Positions 4,992 to 45,482 of a DNA stretch of 64,000 nt are shown here, in pieces (the stretch's first letter is position 1; every line of letters begins with the position of its first letter). The notes under the pieces are model-generated. The model worked only from the letters and a program-made list of their open reading frames with translations, was not told where the DNA came from and searched no databases. Source of the DNA: Methylobacterium organophilum (GTDB lineage Bacteria > Pseudomonadota > Alphaproteobacteria > Rhizobiales > Beijerinckiaceae); assembly GCF_022179465.1 (NCBI RefSeq), contig NZ_BPQV01000001.1, positions 62,001 to 126,000 on the forward strand. Direction: 5' to 3'. Made by a program: the position numbers and the translations under genes.

Positions 4992-6893
4992 CTATCCCGG
5001 GCGCCCGTCCTCGCCGAGGATGACGCGGCGGTCGCCGATCCGGCGGGTGAAGCGGATCGCGTCGAGATGCTCCAGCAGGGGAATCGAGAACTTGCGGGAG
5101 ATGCCGAGGGTCGCCCCCGCCTCCCGTGCCAGAAAGCCCTCCCCGCCCCGGTCGGCCGGATAGGTCTGCGCGAGCTGCCGCTTCGCCTGCGCGATGGCGT
5201 CCTTGTGGAACAGGATCGTCCGCTTCTGCACCCGGTCGAGGGCGCGCACGAGGGTGCCGGCGCCCAGCAGGAAGGCGAGCGCCTCACGCCGGCGGATGTC
5301 GCGGCCGACCGCCTCGATCTCGTCGGGCGGGGTCAGGCCGCCCTTGCGGAAGAGGGCCTCCAGGGCGCGGACATGTTCGGTGGCGTTGCGGGCGGGATCG
5401 AAATCCGCCCGGCGGAACAGCGTGCCCGCCTGAACCGCATCCTTCGTGGCGACGAGGTCGCGCAGGGCCGCGGCGGCGGCGGCCTCGCCGAGGCCGCTCT
5501 CCCGGGCGAGCCGGTCGAGGGGGACGCCGTGCTCGATCGGGTGATCGCGGTGATGGCGGGCGAGCGCCGCCAGCACCGTCTCGCGCAGGCGCGTGAAATG
5601 CGCCGCATCGACGAGCCTGTCCCCGACCGGACGGGCGCGGATCTCGCTCAGGCGGCGGCGTACCCGATCCGGGGCCACGCCGACGGCGCGGACCAGATCG
5701 GCCTCGCTCACGCCCTCCAGGCCCCCCTGTGCCAAGCGGATGTCGAGGGCTTCGCGAGGGCCGCCGGCCGCGAGCGCGGCCAGATCCGCCAGCACCTTCG
5801 CGTCGTTGCGCTTGCGCCGCCGGGAGAGCGGATCGAGCACGCGGCCGCCGGCCACGGTGATCGGCGGCGCATCCAGGCGGAGGATGAAGGGCTCGCGCAC
5901 CGGAAGCGCGATGTCCTCCTCGGCGCGCAGTTGCGCATAGGCGGTCTCGCCGGGCTCCAGGGCTTCCCGGTCGAGCAGGCGCAGGCGCGCGGGGACCTCG
6001 GCGGTGCCGTAGAGGAGCCGGCAGGCGGTGCCGCCGGCAAGCGGCGCCTCGGCGGAGGCCACGGCGGTGAGCACCACGTCGATCCAGCGCGTCGGCGCGA
6101 GAAGACCGGGCGCGCACAGGGCCTGGCCCCGGTGCAGATCGGACAATTCGATGCCGCGCAGGGCGACCGCCGTGCGCCGGCCGGGCTCCGCCGTCTGCAC
6201 GCTGCGGCCGTGGATCTGCAGGCTGCGGACCGTGACGGCGCGGCCGCCCGGCATCAGCGCGAGCTTGTCGCCGACCGCGAGGGGGCCGCGGCGGAGCGTC
6301 CCGGTGACGACCGCGCCGAAGCCCGCCCGGGCGAAGACGCGGTCCACCGGCAGATAGGGGAAGCCGTCGTCGATCGCCGCCGGGGCGTCCTTCAGGAGCG
6401 CGCCCAGGGCCTGGGCCAGGGCTTCGAGGCCGGTGCCGGCGACGACGGAGGTCGGCACCACCACCGCCTGTTCGAGCCCCGCCCGCGCCGCCACCGCGGC
6501 GAGTTCCGCGCTGCGGGCGGCGACAGCCTCCGGGCTGACGAGGTCGCATTTCGTGAGGGCGATCACGCCCCGGCGCACGCCGACGAGCCGGGCGATCTCC
6601 AGATGCTCCACCGTCTGCGGCTTGATGCCCTCCTGCACGTCGACGGCGAGCAGAACCGCGCGCATGCCGGTGGCGCCGGAGATCATCGCCCGCACGAAGC
6701 GCTCGTGGCCGGGCAGGTCGACGAGGTCGATCTCGCCCTCCGGCCGCCGCAGCAGGGCGAAGCCCGGGACGATGGAGACGCCGCGGGCCTGCTCCTCCTT
6801 CAGGCGGTCGGTCTCGACGCCGGTGAGGGCGCGGACGAGGGCGGTCTTGCCGTGATCGACATGGCCGATCACGCCGACGAGGAGCGACTTCAT
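4992..6893 (-). CDS. selB: Selenocysteine-specific translation elongation factor SelB
   Basis: A 633-residue GTPase that brings Sec-tRNA(Sec) to in-frame UGA codons next to a SECIS hairpin. G1 is GHVDHGKT (10-17), G3 DLPGH (59-63) and G4 TKCD (114-117). The EF-Tu-like beta domains follow, then a C-terminal series of winged helices (about 390-633) that binds the SECIS loop. Length and domain order match bacterial SelB. It is 90 bp downstream of fdhE on the same strand. Its obvious client is the formate dehydrogenase alpha subunit at the head of this cluster. No selA, selD or tRNA-Sec gene was found in the window. Confidence 0.97.
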   Translation of the reverse strand: MKSLLVGVIGHVDHGKTALVRALTGVETDRLKEEQARGVSIVPGFALLRRPEGEIDLVDLPGHERFVRAMISGATGMRAVLLAVDVQEGIKPQTVEHLEIARLVGVRRGVIALTKCDLVSPEAVAARSAELAAVAARAGLEQAVVVPTSVVAGTGLEALAQALGALLKDAPAAIDDGFPYLPVDRVFARAGFGAVVTGTLRRGPLAVGDKLALMPGGRAVTVRSLQIHGRSVQTAEPGRRTAVALRGIELSDLHRGQALCAPGLLAPTRWIDVVLTAVASAEAPLAGGTACRLLYGTAEVPARLRLLDREALEPGETAYAQLRAEEDIALPVREPFILRLDAPPITVAGGRVLDPLSRRRKRNDAKVLADLAALAAGGPREALDIRLAQGGLEGVSEADLVRAVGVAPDRVRRRLSEIRARPVGDRLVDAAHFTRLRETVLAALARHHRDHPIEHGVPLDRLARESGLGEAAAAAALRDLVATKDAVQAGTLFRRADFDPARNATEHVRALEALFRKGGLTPPDEIEAVGRDIRRREALAFLLGAGTLVRALDRVQKRTILFHKDAIAQAKRQLAQTYPADRGGEGFLAREAGATLGISRKFSIPLLEHLDAIRFTRRIGDRRVILGEDGRPG

Positions 6894-6983: not shown

Positions 6984-8003
6984 TCAGGTCACGAAGAGCA
7001 GGTTGAGCCCGGCCTTGCGGAAGCCGTCCTCGACGATCTTCAGGTCGAGGCCGTAGGAGGCCACGTCGTCGGCGATGGGGTCGAGGGCCGGATCGCGGTG
7101 CTGGTGCAGGTGCTTGAGATAGCTGTGGCAGGTGCCGCAGGCCTCGACCTGCACGTCCTTCGAGAGCTCGTCGAGGCCGTAATAGCTGATGTCCTCGCCG
7201 GAGCCGCAGGCGGTGCAGCGGATGCGCACGTGGTTCCACAGGGTGCCGCAGAGGGAGCAGGACAGGTAGCGGGCCTTGTCAGCCGGGGTCCAGGACACGA
7301 TCAGGCTCGCGGTCGGCGCGCCGCCGCAGGCCGGGCAGACGCCGTCGGCGACCGGCTTCAGAGCCTTCGGGGTCAGCCGCGCGGCGAGCCCCGCGAGATG
7401 GACCTGAAGGGCGCCGGCGACGAAGACGCATTCGGCCATGCGCTCGACCGGGAAGGCGCCCTCGAAGACCTGCAGGGCGAGGTCGAGCCGGTCCTCGGCC
7501 GGCGCGGCCTTCAGCGCGGCGAGCGTCTGCCGCGCGGCCTCGGGCGCGCCGGAGAGGTCGACCTTGTCGAGCAGGGCGTCGAGGCAGGCGGGAAAGCCGC
7601 TTTCGTCGGGGAGCACGCTGCGCGAGAGCGCCGGCATGCCGTGCTCGGCGCGCAGGGCGAGGTCCGCCTCGGAGACGGGCGCTCCCGCCTCGGAGCCGGG
7701 GCTCTCCGCCTGCACCGCGGCCTGGGCCTCGGCGATGGCCGCGAGGAACAGGAGGTAGCCGCCGAGGGGATGCTCGGGCGCGAGCGCCCGGAAGCGGGCG
7801 GCGCGATCCCGGAACAGCGTCTCCGGCGCCGGCAGCCGCACGAACGGCACCGCGCCCGAGATGCCGATCTGGTCGGGATCGGGCTTGATCCGCTCGAGGC
7901 GGCGGGCGGTCGCCTGCCGGGCCTCCGCCTGCTCGGCGGGGGTGGACGGCGTGTCGTTGCCCGCCCCCTCCTTCGAGGGAGCGCGCTTGAAGAAACGGGC
8001 CAA
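6984..8003 (-). CDS. fdhE: Formate dehydrogenase accessory protein FdhE
   Basis: A 339-residue cytoplasmic protein needed to make active, membrane-exported formate dehydrogenase-N/O; it binds the catalytic subunit before Tat export. The C-terminal half carries four CxxC pairs (C223/C226, C249/C252, C263/C266, C289/C292), the rubredoxin-like metal sites of FdhE. The start is 3 bp after the gamma-subunit stop, so it belongs to the fdn operon. The N-terminal 30 residues are low-complexity and basic, a little longer than in enterobacterial FdhE. Confidence 0.95.
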   Translation of the reverse strand: MARFFKRAPSKEGAGNDTPSTPAEQAEARQATARRLERIKPDPDQIGISGAVPFVRLPAPETLFRDRAARFRALAPEHPLGGYLLFLAAIAEAQAAVQAESPGSEAGAPVSEADLALRAEHGMPALSRSVLPDESGFPACLDALLDKVDLSGAPEAARQTLAALKAAPAEDRLDLALQVFEGAFPVERMAECVFVAGALQVHLAGLAARLTPKALKPVADGVCPACGGAPTASLIVSWTPADKARYLSCSLCGTLWNHVRIRCTACGSGEDISYYGLDELSKDVQVEACGTCHSYLKHLHQHRDPALDPIADDVASYGLDLKIVEDGFRKAGLNLLFVT

Positions 8004-8006
8004 ATC

Positions 8007-8732
8007 TCAGTGTCCGCGCTTGTCGGTCGATCCGGTGCGGGTCGGCAGGCTGGCCGCGATCTGGCGGAACCACTTGCGGTGGTGCCGGTAGGCCCAGCCC
8101 CCCGTCACCGTGCCGCGCACCATCGCCCGCCCGGTGCCGCGCACCCAGATGCCGGCATAGATGTGCACGACGATGATGGCGATGGCCACCACCGCGGCGA
8201 GCGAGTGGCCGAGGAGCGCCCAGCGCTGCGTCTCGATGGTGGTGGCGCCGCCGAAATACTGCTCCCAGATCGCCAGCCCCGTGACGAACATGATGCCGAT
8301 CAGGGCGGTCTGCCCCCAGAACACGCCCTTCTGCCCGGCATTGTACTTGCCGAGCTCGGGCAGGCGGTCCTCGCGGTTGGTCACCACGTCGCCGATATGC
8401 TTCGACCATTCCACGTCGTCGCGGTTCGGGATGTTGAGCCGCCAGAAGCGGATGAACAGGAACGCGAAGCTGACCACCAGCGCGACGCCCATCCAGGGAT
8501 GGAAGGCGCGCGTGGTCTGCCCCCCGCCGAACAGGGCGGTGAGGAAGTTCAGGTAGGGCGTGAACATCGCCAGCCCGGACAGGGTCAGCAGGGTGAACAG
8601 GATCGCGGTGATCCAGTGGTTCACCCGCTGCAGCCCGGTATAGCGGGGCACGTAGAGGACCTCGGACGCCTCGGTCTTCACTTCCCGAAGAGGCCGGACC
8701 TCGCTGTCGCGAACGTCGGTATGGATCGTCAT
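8007..8732 (-). CDS. fdnI: Formate dehydrogenase gamma subunit (cytochrome b556)
   Basis: A 241-residue membrane subunit that takes electrons from the beta subunit and passes them to quinone. Four hydrophobic helices are visible, and the first begins with RVNHWITAILFTLLTLSG, typical of the FdnI/FdoI di-haem cytochrome b. Candidate haem His ligands occur in that first helix (NHW), the FHPWMGV segment and near VVHIYAG. It lies 51 bp after the beta gene and 3 bp before fdhE. The N-terminal 40 residues are an extra hydrophilic leader compared with E. coli FdnI. Confidence 0.94.
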   Translation of the reverse strand: MTIHTDVRDSEVRPLREVKTEASEVLYVPRYTGLQRVNHWITAILFTLLTLSGLAMFTPYLNFLTALFGGGQTTRAFHPWMGVALVVSFAFLFIRFWRLNIPNRDDVEWSKHIGDVVTNREDRLPELGKYNAGQKGVFWGQTALIGIMFVTGLAIWEQYFGGATTIETQRWALLGHSLAAVVAIAIIVVHIYAGIWVRGTGRAMVRGTVTGGWAYRHHRKWFRQIAASLPTRTGSTDKRGH

Positions 8733-8783: not shown

Positions 8784-9713
8784 TCACGACGGCCGGATCT
8801 CTCTGCCCCCTTCGCGCGCCGCCTTGTCCTTGAGGTCGATCGCCTCCTCTTCCTCCTCCGGCACCACCTCGTTCGGGCCGGCGGTGACGTAGTGGAAGAA
8901 GCCCGCGAGGGCCGCGAAGCCCATCGTGGCGAGGCCGAACACCTTGGCGCCCCCCTTCCAGAAGGAGACGAGCGGCGAGATCTTCGGATCGTCCGGCAGG
9001 CCGTTATAGAGGTGCGGCTTGTCGTTGTGGTGGAGCACGTACATCACGTGCGTGCCGCCGACCCCCTTCGGGTCGTAGAGCCCCGCATGGTCGAACCCGC
9101 GCGACTTGAGGTCGTCGATCCGGTCATGCGCCTGCTCGACCATGGCCTCCTTGGTGCCGAACATGATCGCGCCGGTGGGGCAAGCCTTGGCGCAGGCCGG
9201 GGCCTGGCCGACGGCGACGCGGTCCGAGCACAGGGTGCACTTGTAGGCCTTGCGGTCGGTCTTCGAGATGCGCGGGATGTTGAAGGGGCAGCCCTTCACG
9301 CAATACGCGCAGCCGATGCAGTTCTCCTCGACGAAGTCGACGATGCCGTTGGAGTACTGCACGATCGCCCCCGGCGACGGGCAGGCCTTGAGGCAGCCCG
9401 GGTCGGTGCAGTGCATGCAGCCGTCCTTGCGGATCAGCCATTCGAGATTGCCGGCCTCGTTCTCGTATTCGGTGAACCGCATCAGGGTCCACGTCTTCGC
9501 GGTGAGGTCGTGCGGGTTGTCGTAGACGCCGACATTGATGCCGACGTCGTCGCGCAGGTCGTTCCACTCCTCGCAGGCCGATTGGCAGGCCTTGCAGCCG
9601 ATGCACTTCGACACGTCGATGAGCTTGGCGACCTCCTCGTGGGCGCGGATGGCCGGCGGCTGGTCCGTGGAGGCGGAGCGCTGCCGGATATCGAGGGAGC
9701 TGTAGTCAGCCAT
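8784..9713 (-). CDS. fdxH: Formate dehydrogenase beta subunit (four-cluster ferredoxin-like)
   Basis: A 309-residue electron-transfer subunit that relays electrons from the molybdopterin alpha subunit to the cytochrome b subunit. Ferredoxin-type Cys groups are visible in order: [37 protein letters not shown] and CTLCSDR...CAKACPTGA, enough for four [4Fe-4S] clusters. A single C-terminal helix (about 265-283, [17 protein letters not shown]) anchors it in the membrane as in FdnH/FdoH. The alpha stop is 15 bp upstream, so translation is probably coupled. Confidence 0.96.
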
Positions 9714-9728
9714 GGTTCACACCCTCCC

Positions 9729-12700
9729 TCACGCGACCCGGTCCGACGGAGGCGAGGTCGGCTCGATGTTCACGAGCCAAGCCTTGAACTCCGGCGTCTC
9801 GGTGTTGGCGTCGCCGACCACGGGGGTCAGCGAGTTCGGGTGCCATCCTTTCTTGGTCTGGCCGATGAAGCCCCAGTGCTGCGGCATGCCGACCACGTGG
9901 ACCTTCTTGCCGTCGCAGATCAGCGGCTTGATGCGCTTGGTCACCACCGCCTTGGCCTTCACCGAGCCGCGCTTCGACCAGACGCGGACCCAGTCGCCCT
10001 TGGCGATGCCCTTCTCGCGGGCGAGCTCCTCGGAGATCTCGACGAAGGCCTCCGGCTGGAGGATCGCGTTGATCTTCGCGTGCTTGGTCCAGCCGTGGAA
10101 GTGCTCCGTCAGCCGGTAGCTCGTCGCCGCGTAGGGGAACTCCTCCGAGGTGCCGAGATCGGCCAGGTCACCCTTGAAGATGCGGGCGGCGGGCGCGCCC
10201 TTGATCTTCGGGAAGGCGGCGTTGGCGACCGGGGACTCGAAGGGCTCGTAATGCGTCGGGAACGGCCCGTCGCGCATGAGGCCCCGGGTCCACAGCCGGG
10301 CGACGCCCTCCTGGTTCAGGATGAACGGGCCCATGCCCTTCTCGGGGGCCACGGTGGCGCCGTAGTCCGGCACGTCGAAGCCGACCCACTGCTTGCCGTT
10401 CCACTCGATGAGCTTCTTCTTCTCCGACCAGGGCTTCCCGTCCGGGTCGCACGAGGCGCGGTTGTAGAGCACGCGGCGGTTGGCCGGCCAGGCGAAGGCC
10501 CAGTTCGGCGCGATGCCGCGATTGCCGGGATCGGTGTTGTCCCGGCGGGCCATGGTGTTGCCCTTCTCGGTGTAGCAGCCCGAGTAGATCCAGCAGCCGC
10601 AGGCGGTCGAGCCGTCGTCCTTGAGCTGCGCGAACCCGTCGACCTGCCTGCCGGCGGGGATCGTCGCCCCCGTGGCGTCCTGGATCGGGGCCAGCGTGTA
10701 GCCGTTGAGCTCGCGGGCGAGCTCCACCGGCGTCGGCGATTCCGCCAGGGCGTAGTTCCAGGTCAGGTTGACGATCGGATCCGGGAAGGCGCCGCCGTCC
10801 TTCTGGTACATCGCCTTCATCCGAAGGAAGATCGCCGACATGATCTCGATGTCCGAGCGGCACTCGCCCGGCGCATCCTGAGCCTGCCAGTGCCATTGCA
10901 GCCAGCGCGAGGAGTTCGAGAGCGACCCCTCCTCCTCCGCGAACAGCGTGGTCGGCAGCTCGAAGACTTCCGTCTGAATCTTCGTCGGATCGACGTCGTT
11001 GTACTCGCCGTGGTTCTCCCAGAAGCGGGCCGTCTCGGTCTGGAGCGGGTCCATGACCACGAGGAACTTCATCTTCGAGAAGGCCTCGGTCATCTTGGCG
11101 CGGTTCGGGAACGACAACAGGGGGTTGAAGCCCTGGATGACGTAGCCCGTCATCTTGCCCTGCTTGGCAAGCTCGAACCCGCGGATGACGTCGTAGGTCG
11201 GCACGTCGAGCTTGGGCAGATAGTCGTACGCCCAGTCGTTCTCCTTCTGCGCCTTGTCGCCCCACATCGCCTTCTGGAAGGAGACGAAGAACTTGTTGTA
11301 GTTCTGCCAGTAGCTCATCTGGCCGGGGCGCAGCGGCTTGAACTGCCGCTTGGCGATGTAGGACGCGTAATCCGGCTCCTTCTCGATCGGGATGTTCAGA
11401 TAGCCGGGGATGAGGTTGCTCATCAGCCCGATATCCGTGAGCCCCTGGATGTTCGAGTGGCCGCGCAGGGCGTTCATGCCGCCGCCCAGCATGCCGATAT
11501 TGCCGAGCAGGGTCTGCACGATGCACATCGAGCGGATGTTCTGCGAGCCCTTGGAATGGTGCGTCCAGCCGAGCGCGTAGAGCGAGGTCATCGTCTTCTC
11601 GGGCGACGACGTCTCCGCGATCATCTGGCAGACCTTGAGGAAGGTCTCCTTGGGCGAGCCGCAGATCCGCTCCACCATCTCGGGCGTGTAGAGCGCGATG
11701 TGCTTCTTCAAAAGCTGCATCACGCAGCGCGGATGCTGCATCGTCTCGTCGACGACGGCGTAACCGTCGGGACCGATCTCGTAGTCCCAGGTGGTCTTGT
11801 CGTAGTCGCGCTTGTCCTCCGAGTAGCCCGAGAACAGGCCCTCTTCGAACGCGTAGCCGTCCTTCACCACGAACGCGGCGTTGGTGTAGGCGGTGAGATA
11901 GCGATGCTGGAGCTTGTCGTTGTCGATCAGGTACTTGGCGACACCCGATAGGAACGCGATGTCCGTCCCCTGCCGGATCGGGCAGTAGAGATCGGCCACC
12001 GAGGCGGTGCGCGTGAAACGAGGATCGATGACGATGAGCTTGGCGTTGTTGTGCGCCTTGGCTTCCACCACCCACTTGAACCCGCAGGGGTGAGCCTCAG
12101 CGGCATTGCCGCCCATCACGGTGATGAGGTCCGCGTGCTTGATGTCCATCCAGAGGTTGGTCATCGCACCGCGGCCGAAGGAGGGCGCCAAACTGGCGAC
12201 CGAAGGACCGTGTCAAACCCTGGCTTGGTTGTCGAAGACCAGGGCCCCCATGCTTCGGACCGTCTTGTAGGTCAGCCAGGCCGTCTCGTTGGTGGTGGCC
12301 GAGGCGCCCAGGAAGCCGGTGGTGATCCATCGGTTGACCGTGAGGTCGCCGTTCTTGGCCACGAAGTTCCTGTCGCGGTCCTCCTTGAGGAGCGTCGCGA
12401 TCCGGTCGAGGGCGAAGTCCCAGGAGACCCGCTTGAACTCGGTCGTGCCCGGCGCCCGGTATTGCGGGTACTTGGTGCGGGTCTCGGACCGGATGAAGTC
12501 GAGGAGCGCCGAGCCCTTCGGGCAGAGCGTGCCGCGGTTGACCGGATGATCCGGGTCGCCCTCGACATGCATCACCGCGGACTTGGCGTTCTTCGAACGG
12601 TCGCCGAGGCTGTAGAGGATGACGCCGCAGGCCACCGAGCAATACGGGCAGGTGTTCCGCGTCTCGCGCATCTGCGCGAGCTTGTAGGGCCGCACCGCGG

Positions 12701-12809
12701 CGGCCATGGCGGGCTCGAGCCCGCCGAATCCGAGGGCGCCGAGCGAGCCCCCTGCGAGGCCGGCGCCCAGCCCCTTCAACAACCCGCGCCGCGAGACCTG
12801 GACCGTCAT
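9729..12809 (-). CDS. fdnG: Formate dehydrogenase-N alpha subunit, selenoprotein (UGA = Sec199)
   Basis: A 1026-residue molybdopterin oxidoreductase that oxidises formate in the periplasm. The twin-arginine signal SRRGLLKG lies at residues 6-13. Cys54, 57, 61 and 96 form the [4Fe-4S] site. The frame is interrupted once, by TGA at 12213-12215, exactly where the family has selenocysteine: the context is NQARV-U-HGPSVASLAP, and the following frame resumes without a shift. I read this as Sec199, not as a broken gene. A SECIS-like hairpin follows 11 nt later, and selB is in the same cluster. The start at 12809 is chosen because it places the Tat motif correctly; the frame is open 46 codons further upstream without homology. 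Automated gene callers will split this gene in two. Confidence 0.95.
12184..12201 (-). promoter_or_regulatory. SECIS element for UGA recoding in fdnG
   Basis: On the minus strand the sequence GGTCGCCAGTTTGGCGCC can fold as a GG/CC base, a bulged U, a 4-bp CGCC/GGCG stem and an AGUUU loop containing the G-U step recognised by SelB. It begins 11 nt after the UGA, the same spacing I recall for E. coli fdhF, whose SECIS also has a bulged U and an AGGUCU loop. The fold is read by eye and not energy-calculated. Confidence 0.8.
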
Positions 12810-12968
12810 GGCCTGACCCTGTTGAGAGGTATTCTCATTCCAAATCGTTTCCCAGGAACGCGCCCTGGTGGCAAGTGCGGTCGCGTGACACACGACCCTA
12901 AATTGTTGCGCGCAATCGATACGTTCGAAGGCCGGATTCCATCCCAAGCGATGGCGGGTTAGCCCTCC

Positions 12969-17450: not shown

Positions 17451-20400
17451 ATGCGGTTCGATCACGGCGTCTCGGTCGCGGCCATCCTGGCCGCCACGAT
17501 CGGGGCAGGCGCGGCCCAGGCCCAGACGGCCAACACCACGCCCGCCAACGTCAACGTCCTCAACCTGCTCTCGCCCTTCCTGGGCCTCAACGCGACGGCA
17601 ACGGGCCAGGCCACGCTCCAGACCAATCTCGACCAGACGGTCGCCCTGAACAACGGGGCGTCCTCGGACCGGCAGGCCCAGGCGATCAGCGATAAGAACC
17701 TGCCCGGCAACGCGAGCAACAATCTCTCCTCGGTCGGCCTCGGCATCTACGGCCCGGGCGCCAACCTCGCAGGCGGCCTGCCCGCCCAGACCCCGATCAA
17801 CGGCATCACGCCGATTCAGGCGGTGGGCGGCCTCGGCGCCCGACTCGGCCCGATCTTCCAGCGCGGCACCGCCAACGGCACGGGCGGCCCCCTCGGCGCC
17901 ACCGTGGACCTACTCGCCCGCGCCTCTTCCTTCACCGGCACCGATCTCGGCGTCGCCAAGAACTTCTTCGCCAACGGCGCGCCGAACAATCCGGCCGTGA
18001 CGCCCGCGGGCTACGTCCCCACCCCCGCTGTCGCCCCGGCCGGTTATACCCTGCCGAGCTTCAACGGCCTGCCGAACACGAGCAACAGTGTCTACGATCT
18101 CGCCTATGGCGTGACCAACACGCAGCCGGGCCAGAACGTCTACGGCGATTCTCGCCCCGTGCAGGTCGTGCCGGACCGCCTGAACAAGTTCGACCCGACC
18201 GCCCTCGGCGGGCTGGCGACCAACCCCTCCTTCCCGAGCGGGCACACCACCTACGCCTTCACCGACAGCATCCTGATCGCGATGCTGGTACCGCAGCAAT
18301 ATCAGAGCATGATGGCCCGTGCCGCCGATTACGGAGCGAGCCGCATCATCCTCGGCGTGCATTACCCGCTCGACATCATCGGCGGCCGGGCGCTCGCGAG
18401 TTACGACCTCGCCCAGGCCTTCACCAATCCGCTCTACGTCAACAACGCGGCCACCACTGGCACGGCGATCAACCTGCCGAGCCTGTTCACCCAGGCCTCG
18501 GGCCAGATCCAGGCCTATCTCTCCGCGCAATGCGGCGACACCGTCGCCAATTGCGCGGCGAGCACGGCCAACAATGCGGGCAATCCCTATACCGCCTCCG
18601 CCGTGAACCAAGCCCTCTACCAGCAGCGCCTGACCTACGGCCTGCCGACCCTGAGCTTCGTCGCCGCCCCACGCGAGGCGGCGCCGGCCAATGGCCCCGA
18701 CGCCTCGATCCTGCTCGCCCCGCTCTACGGCGGCAGCACCGCCGCGGCCAAGACGATCGCGCCCACCGGCGGCCTCTACGGTTCGCTGCAATCCGGCACG
18801 ATCAACCAGATCCTGGTGAACACCGAGACCAACGCGCTGACCGCCTTCTACGGCACGCCCCTCAGCTACTGGAGCCGCATCGACCTCTATTCGGCCGCCG
18901 GCTATTTCGGGAACGTCACCGGCAGCCTGCGGATGGACCCACTCGACCGGCTGACCACCGACGTCATCGTCGGCAATGGCGGCACGCTCTTCGCGGACGG
19001 CACCATCACCGGCCGCACCATCCTGACCGCCGGCGCCGTCCTCGGCGGCACGGGCAGCCTCGGCAGCCTTACGGCCCTGAGCGGTTCGACGGTCGCCCCC
19101 GGCAACGGTCTTGGCACCCTGACAGTGGCCGGAAATGCCGCCTTCCTCTCGGGAGCAACCTACCAGGTCCAGGCCAATGCCGCCGGCCAGGCTTCGCGCC
19201 TCGCCGTTGGCGGTAGCGCTAGCCTCGGCGGCACAGTGGACGTGCAGGCCCAGGGCGGCCTCTACGCCCCGCGCACGGCCTACACCATCCTGACCGCCCA
19301 GGGCGGCGTGAACGGCCAGTTCTCCAACGTCAGCGCGAATTTCGCTTTCCTCACCCCAAGCCTGCGCTACCAGGCCAACGAGGTCGATCTGACGCTGACC
19401 CGCAACGACATCGCCTTCGCCGCCATCGCGCAGAACCGCAATCAGGCCGCCGCGGCCGATGCGGTGCAGAACACCGGCCCTGGGGCGGGTGTCTACGACC
19501 GCACGGTCGGCCTCACCACGGCGGAGGCGCAGGACGCCTTCCAGGCCCTGTCGGGCGACGTACATGCGAGCGCCGCCTCGGCCGAGTTCGGCACCGCCTT
19601 CTTCATCCGCGAGGCCATCCTCGACCGGCTGCGCCGGGGCGGCAGCCCGGGCTATGCCGAGACCGCTGATTTCGGCAACCTGCCGGCGACCTACACCGCC
19701 GACCTGCCGGGCCGCACGGCGCCGGTGGCGGTGGTGCCCGCGCGGGTGATCGACCCGCGGGTATTCGGGCTGTGGGGCCAGGGCTTCGGCAGCTTCGGCG
19801 ACGTCCGCAGCGACGGCAACGCCGCCGGGCTCACCCGCCAGAGCAGCGGCTTCGTGCTCGGCGCCGACCTGCGGCTCGAGAACGGCTTCCGTCTCGGCGT
19901 GGCCGGCGGCTATGCCTTCACCAGTCTCGACACCAGCGGCCGCCAGCAGACGGGCGAGATCGGGAGCGGCTTCGGCGCGGTCTATGGCGGCACCGAGTTC
20001 GGCCCGGTCGCCCTCCGGCTCGGCGCGGTCTATGCCGACAATTCCCTGCGCACGCGCCGCACCGTCACCTCCCCCGGCCTGTCCGAGGTCGAGACGGCGC
20101 GCTACGGCGGCTCCACGGTGCAGGGCTTCGGCGAGCTCGGCTACCGCTTCGCCCTGGGCTCCGGCGCCCCTTCCGCCCCTGTCAGCAAGGCCCCGGTGGT
20201 CGCGCCTGCCGCGCCGCTCTCCTACATCGAGCCCTTCGTCGGGGGCGCCTATGTCAGCATCCACCACGACCGCTTCGCGGAGACGGGCGGCCTAGCGGCC
20301 CTGCGCGGCTTCGGCCGCGACACCGATGTCGGCACCTTTACCGCGGGCGTGCGGGCGCGGACGGTGTTCGACCTTGGGCTCGGCGCGCCGGTCTCGGCCT

Positions 20401-20642
20401 ATGCCATGGCCGGCTATCGCCGCGCCTTCGGCGACGTGGTGCCGACCGCGCTCCTGGCCTTCAGCACCGGCCCGAGCTTCGTGACGGCCGGCATCCCGAT
20501 CGACCGGGATGCCCTGGTGGCCAATGCCGGCCTCGACCTGCGCGTCTCGGCCAATGCCACGATCGGCATCGCCTATACCGGCCAGGTCGGCGAGCGGGCC
20601 CAGGACCACGCGGTGAAGGGCAACTTCACCCTGCGCTGGTGA
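17451..20642 (+). CDS. Autotransporter with N-terminal PAP2-type acid phosphatase domain
   Basis: A 1063-residue secreted protein. A signal peptide (ending AAQAQT) is followed by a PAP2/class A acid phosphatase-like region. PSFPSGH spans residues 260-265, with His265, and SRIILGVHYPLD includes Arg298, His304 and Asp308, the C-terminal catalytic motifs of the superfamily. The middle (about 490-650) has passenger repeats of autotransporter type (GTLTVAGNAAFLSGATY...). The C-terminal 300 residues (from RVFGLWGQGFG) form the 12-strand autotransporter barrel, ending in Trp. So the phosphatase is probably carried to the cell surface. The first PAP2 motif (KxxxxxxRP) is only partly kept (YGDSRP). 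A terminator follows. Confidence 0.9.
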   Translation: MRFDHGVSVAAILAATIGAGAAQAQTANTTPANVNVLNLLSPFLGLNATATGQATLQTNLDQTVALNNGASSDRQAQAISDKNLPGNASNNLSSVGLGIYGPGANLAGGLPAQTPINGITPIQAVGGLGARLGPIFQRGTANGTGGPLGATVDLLARASSFTGTDLGVAKNFFANGAPNNPAVTPAGYVPTPAVAPAGYTLPSFNGLPNTSNSVYDLAYGVTNTQPGQNVYGDSRPVQVVPDRLNKFDPTALGGLATNPSFPSGHTTYAFTDSILIAMLVPQQYQSMMARAADYGASRIILGVHYPLDIIGGRALASYDLAQAFTNPLYVNNAATTGTAINLPSLFTQASGQIQAYLSAQCGDTVANCAASTANNAGNPYTASAVNQALYQQRLTYGLPTLSFVAAPREAAPANGPDASILLAPLYGGSTAAAKTIAPTGGLYGSLQSGTINQILVNTETNALTAFYGTPLSYWSRIDLYSAAGYFGNVTGSLRMDPLDRLTTDVIVGNGGTLFADGTITGRTILTAGAVLGGTGSLGSLTALSGSTVAPGNGLGTLTVAGNAAFLSGATYQVQANAAGQASRLAVGGSASLGGTVDVQAQGGLYAPRTAYTILTAQGGVNGQFSNVSANFAFLTPSLRYQANEVDLTLTRNDIAFAAIAQNRNQAAAADAVQNTGPGAGVYDRTVGLTTAEAQDAFQALSGDVHASAASAEFGTAFFIREAILDRLRRGGSPGYAETADFGNLPATYTADLPGRTAPVAVVPARVIDPRVFGLWGQGFGSFGDVRSDGNAAGLTRQSSGFVLGADLRLENGFRLGVAGGYAFTSLDTSGRQQTGEIGSGFGAVYGGTEFGPVALRLGAVYADNSLRTRRTVTSPGLSEVETARYGGSTVQGFGELGYRFALGSGAPSAPVSKAPVVAPAAPLSYIEPFVGGAYVSIHHDRFAETGGLAALRGFGRDTDVGTFTAGVRARTVFDLGLGAPVSAYAMAGYRRAFGDVVPTALLAFSTGPSFVTAGIPIDRDALVANAGLDLRVSANATIGIAYTGQVGERAQDHAVKGNFTLRW

Positions 20643-43256: not shown

Positions 43257-45482
<2,226 letters not shown>

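Follow-up and report, generated by a model that had tools for sequence, protein, structure and literature searches.

For the formate dehydrogenase of E. coli, read-through of the UGA codon, the metal, quinone coupling and export are all established. In bacteria at large, formate dehydrogenase alpha subunits together with SelD are the most widespread selenoproteins, according to the accessible portion of a survey that also lists Methylobacterium nodulans among the selD-only organisms (PMC5029168). Clusters of the form fdoGHI-selABC(D) are described in Alphaproteobacteria, for example on pSymA of Sinorhizobium meliloti, and in them selC often lies inside selB or near it; the available part of that account does not contain the word Methylobacterium (PMC8124441). 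The available parts of two further papers, on selenocysteine in E. coli formate dehydrogenase (PMC3636253) and on Methylobacterium proteomics (PMC3621897), hold nothing decisive, and neither did a literature search on the SECIS element turn up anything of the kind.

The window, that is, the whole stretch of 64,000 nucleotides from Methylobacterium organophilum analysed here, carries a minus-strand cluster in the order fdoG-fdoH-fdoI-fdhE-selB, with fdoG first. Its features are as follows (TIGR scores are given against the model cut-off):

9729..12809, minus strand: fdnG/fdoG, formate dehydrogenase-N/O alpha subunit with one in-frame UGA (putative Sec199) and a twin-arginine-type N terminus (TIGR01553, 1kqf_A)
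12213..12215, minus strand: UGA, presumed selenocysteine codon, in alignment with Sec196 of E. coli FdnG
12160..12218, minus strand: SECIS element, whose apical hairpin has the loop A-GUU-U and, at position 17 (U of UGA = 1), a bulged U (Rfam RF01989)
8784..9713, minus strand: fdoH/fdnH, iron-sulfur beta subunit (TIGR01582, 467.3 vs 334.7; 1kqf_B, 438 bits)
8007..8732, minus strand: fdoI/fdnI, cytochrome b gamma subunit (TIGR01583, 176.7 vs 115.85; 1kqf_C, 177 bits)
6984..8003, minus strand: fdhE, formate dehydrogenase accessory protein (TIGR01562, 247.8 vs 187.65)
4992..6893, minus strand: selB, selenocysteine-specific elongation factor, 90 bp after fdhE (TIGR00475, 263.5 vs 242.25)

The gene shares with E. 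coli FdnG (PDB 1kqf/1kqg) a UGA at the Sec196 column, a SECIS element directly after it, a Tat-type N terminus, and FdnH and FdnI partners; the iron-sulfur beta and cytochrome b gamma subunits that define an FdnGHI complex both lie in the fdoG cluster. Unlike in E. coli, selB lies inside the cluster, with selA and selC together, and selD, elsewhere in the genome. Sec-containing fdoGHI genes grouped with sel genes are also shared with the alphaproteobacterial clusters, as far as the accessible part of their description goes (PMC8124441), but here the fdo cluster has selB as its only sel gene, and selC adjoins selA on another contig. The nested arrangement of other Alphaproteobacteria, selC within selB, was examined and rejected, since tRNA-Sec is next to selA instead. 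Only this layout, with selB alone in the cluster, is slightly unusual in the locus. Elsewhere in the window, a PAP2 domain and an autotransporter beta-domain occur together in one frame of 1063 residues (17451-20642, plus strand).

The preliminary description had joined two frames, 9729-12191 and 12213-12947, into one minus-strand gene interrupted by a TGA (12213-12215) at the active-site position of FdnG/FdoG, and had predicted that alignment of the joined translation to E. coli FdnG would bring the UGA to Sec196. Both frames were recovered at these coordinates and in the same frame; the TGA is in frame, flanked by NQARV and HGPSVASLAP as claimed. Translated with TGA as U, 9729-12947 gives a single protein with one internal TGA ahead of the terminal TGA. 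This joined translation matches E. coli FdnG (1kqf_A) at 1404 bits over its residues 50-1063, continuously through the TGA, and U245 (Sec199 when counted from the ATG at 12809) aligns with X196 of 1kqf_A, the predicted Sec196 position. The whole protein scores 1429.8 bits with TIGR01553, the model for the FdnG/FdoG selenoprotein, against a cut-off of 814.2. A frameshift between the two pieces was rejected: they share one frame, and the FdnG match is continuous across the TGA. A worry voiced at the same time, that annotation as two genes or as a pseudogene would lose the catalytic subunit, proved only partly apt, because a related copy with the UGA, carried by a plasmid of Terrarubrum, already stands full length as fdnG in the public record.

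Translation most likely starts at ATG 12809 with the Tat-type sequence MTVQVSRRGLLKG, and 12810-12947 would then most likely be an untranslated leader. This start is favoured because in three of the 14 genus copies (L102, L103 and L105) the nearest upstream stop lies only 4-12 codons 5' of the equivalent ATG. A Tat-type start is found 198 codons 5' of the UGA in all 14.

Rfam SECIS_3 (RF01989) gives 67.1 bits over 12160-12218, above its gathering score of 63, and nothing else in the genome (5.06 Mb) matches the model at E 0.001; the loop reads A-GUU-U vs A-GUC-U in the Rfam consensus. The bacterial SECIS model, in the accessible part of its source, requires a loop of 3-9 nt with G in the first two loop positions, an upper stem of 4-16 bp, a distance of 16-37 nt from the UGA and an MFE of -7.5 or below (PMC13188914). 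The fdoG hairpin falls within this model: its loop is GUU, 5 bp stand above the bulge, the UGA-to-loop distance is 19 nt and the apical 27 nt fold at -9.5 kcal/mol. These apical 27 nt, delimited post hoc with the structure already known, are better folded than 198 of 200 shuffles (z -2.83). The whole 59-nt element is not unusually stable (z +0.80, 152 of 200 shuffles as good).

In a comparison among relatives, 98.7% of cells are paired in the apical stem and three of its seven pairs show changes on both sides; in the lower stem just 76.3% of cells are paired. For the whole structure the figure is 86.1%, vs 31-50% for slid versions, and the covariation score exceeds that of all 500 shuffles; the number of pairs changed on both sides, five, was reached by 64 of the 500. 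The bulged U and the loop GU, the SelB contacts in E. coli, are conserved in 22 of 22 sequences and in all 29 distinct FdnG types that carry the UGA. Among 28 copies, conservation of synonymous sites downstream of the UGA shows no significant excess (8 of 17 conserved vs 215 of 680 elsewhere, p 0.14). One relative with a cysteine codon, L085 (TGC), has GC in the loop where UGA copies carry GU, a single case that would fit a relaxed need for the SECIS element.

The genome of the window carries all four components of Sec decoding: selA, selB, tRNA-Sec and selD. The selA gene (569.1 bits) and tRNA-Sec (76.2 bits) lie ~100 bp apart on contig C4, and ARAGORN calls the tRNA tRNA-SeC with anticodon TCA. 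selD (413.5 bits) is on C1 outside the window and fdhD (176.1 bits, cut-off 140.9) on C13, both from searches covering this genome only. The preliminary description had staked its selenoprotein reading on the UGA lying in the catalytic Sec/Cys column and on selA, selD and selC being present; both hold, and together with the SECIS element and selB they support that reading, with read-through itself deduced from sequence. A separate weak match to the selD model (32 bits) at 43452-44183 of the window, plus strand, lies within a 773-residue frame; this is probably another AIR-synthase-like protein, such as PurL, and not SelD. A near-cognate or suppressor tRNA might instead read the UGA as another amino acid, such as Trp or Cys, which is compatible with the sequence alone, and the sole sense-codon relative (L085) does encode Cys; set against the Sec column, the SECIS element, the tRNA-Sec with its TCA anticodon, and selA, selB and selD, this reading is extremely improbable.

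Reading of the UGA as selenocysteine also agrees with its distribution. Among 64 related loci in genome_contigs, the best relatives are from Methylobacterium (86-93%), and the codon at the site is TGA in 59, TGC in one (L085) and TNA in one. Three loci gave no site: L076 and L081 begin past it, and L075 was unresolved by the pattern used. A set of 28 coding sequences of equal length comprises the window and 27 of the 29 Methylobacteriaceae loci tried, L035 and L041 being left out because their lengths differ slightly; in it the site is TGA 27 times and TNA once, with no other internal stop.

Co-occurrence was followed in 61 genomes: the genus supplied 37, among them that of the window itself, and the order another 24. 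Fourteen of the 61, all within the genus (14/37), have FdnG at E 1e-200 or better, with TGA at the site in every case. These 14 also exceed the SECIS_3 cut-off, and a fifteenth genome (G019) has a weak match only. selA exceeds its cut-off in 18 genomes, and SelB at >=64% identity is found in the identical 18. tRNA-Sec was called by the gap between 74.6 and 52.3 bits and not by the gathering score, because tRNA-Ser passes the latter too (52 of 61 genomes over the cut-off); the window's own genome has such a 51.5-bit match, named tRNA-Ser by ARAGORN. On this basis 17 of the 18 genomes have tRNA-Sec at >=74 bits, the exception being G014 (94% complete, 420 contigs), which holds the gene, selA and selB and no tRNA-Sec match above ~52 bits. 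A UGA-containing formate dehydrogenase occurs in all 18 genus genomes with selA and selB (14 of FdnG type, six of a second type, two with both); at the thresholds applied, the remaining 19 have none. Were the genomes independent of one another, so exact a coincidence would have a chance of 5.7e-11, but they are related. Among the Methylobacterium loci of the 64 above, a SelB >60% identical lies on the same locus as FdnG in L026 and L041 only, a lower bound because many loci are short.

The second type explains the four Sec-decoding genomes without FdnG (G006, G019, G022 and G036), all of which hold it; with G017 and G026 it is present in six of the 37 genus genomes (loci L099-L101 and L192-L197). 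It is ~38-41% identical to the fdoG protein and shares with it a single in-frame UGA in the corresponding position (NQARI-U-HSS), together with a SECIS-like hairpin. The SECIS_3 score is ~30 bits in three genomes and was not reported in the other three. With its nearest NCBIfam model, NF041513 (cut-off 1400), a part of 674 residues scores 980 bits. The window's own genome yielded no second UGA formate dehydrogenase: among 11 P0001 matches the query gene alone contains an internal stop, and the second type (P0002) has no match at E 1e-150.

A true nonsense mutation, with fdoG a pseudogene in this strain, would agree with the split of the gene in two under the standard code, but the TGA is common to 14 of 14 genus copies, in each of which the next stop is the 828th codon, and to 59 of 64 relatives. 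This conservation across genera, the SECIS element and the co-occurring Sec machinery leave the pseudogene barely credible. Two separate proteins, one of the N-terminal 198 residues and one starting at TTG 12191, have next to no probability: mechanical ORFs exist for both, but the match to the solved catalytic subunit runs continuously across the two pieces and TTG 12191 falls within the SECIS match.

The locus almost certainly encodes a respiratory formate dehydrogenase of the FdnGHI/FdoGHI type, with the fdoG UGA read as active-site selenocysteine. The DNA itself presents one gene, a UGA on the Sec column, a SECIS element, a complete Sec gene set and three subunits. Actual read-through, metal, quinone coupling and export would follow the E. 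coli enzyme. A ribosome on fdoG would reach the UGA at codon 199, where the cluster-encoded SelB would bind the SECIS hairpin just 3' of it and bring Sec-tRNA-Sec, made by SelA from Ser-tRNA-Sec and selenophosphate supplied by SelD. The selenocysteine would become a metal ligand in a Mo/W-bis-MGD active site, FdhD and FdhE would assist maturation, and the Tat signal would export the alpha subunit. The complex, of the FdnGHI/FdoGHI kind, would be membrane-bound and face the periplasm, passing formate electrons through FdoH and the haem-b subunit FdoI to the quinone pool. Because its internal UGA is almost certainly active-site selenocysteine, as in E. coli, fdoG as a selenoprotein is a correct yet expected finding and adds one more member to a very familiar family.

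A by-product lies outside the window. Seven further SelB-like proteins, 33-37% identical, occur in six of the 18 Sec-decoding genomes (G007, G013, G021 twice, G023, G026 and G031; loci L156-L162 and L201); of these L201 was tested and reaches 356.5 bits with the selB model (cut-off 242.25). The window's own genome has no second SelB at E 1e-50. In seven of seven loci the frame directly upstream of the second SelB contains a single in-frame TGA, always in the same position, EGHW-U-VIDAPGPWGTGPF. One copy was tested and is a family-5 ABC substrate-binding protein (Pfam SBP_bac_5, 119 bits) with no NCBIfam family over cut-off. A further TGA copy lies beside an annotated selB on a Methylobacterium radiotolerans plasmid (L203), where the PLSDB table, itself incomplete, lists no gene over the UGA frame.

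Columns 10-41 (T of TGA = 1) are identical in all seven substrate-binding-protein genes. In the 14 codons after the TGA, a stretch picked post hoc once the column identity was known, 10 of the 13 degenerate codons with an invariant amino acid are unchanged vs 129 of 320 elsewhere (p 0.0098), and the gene's longest run of unchanged codons, 10, lies within it; this conservation is partly shared ancestry, because the proteins are 84-100% alike (two nearly identical). The stretch after this TGA folds at -24.2 kcal/mol (z -2.15) into a hairpin with a GUGGG loop and a bulged U; 9 of 200 shuffles fold equally well. The UGA column is not Cys in the two solved relatives shown, and a viral-contig search with the protein gave no confirmed relative. 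ABC substrate-binding selenoproteins are already known as SaoX and SaoB from the accessible part of one source (PMC13188914); their models are not among the NCBIfam matches of this protein. A survey of translational GTPases, in the part available, gives one SelB duplication in bacteria, or two with CysN (PMC4342817), and the open-access literature searched, as far as its text was accessible, holds no account of the second-SelB/substrate-binding-protein pair. The Sec system of the genus probably serves more than formate dehydrogenase, with an apparently undescribed candidate substrate-binding selenoprotein and a dedicated SelB in six relatives. The pair leaves the reading of fdoG unaltered and is the more novel of the two findings.

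Joining the two frames retains the catalytic subunit in annotation. Across the 37 genus genomes, selA and selB occur only alongside a UGA formate dehydrogenase, which makes the genus a clean case for studies of gain and loss of selenocysteine use. The sequence evidence supports a selenium-dependent respiratory formate dehydrogenase in Methylobacterium, its gene being present in 14 of those 37 genomes, and selenium supply should therefore affect formate use.
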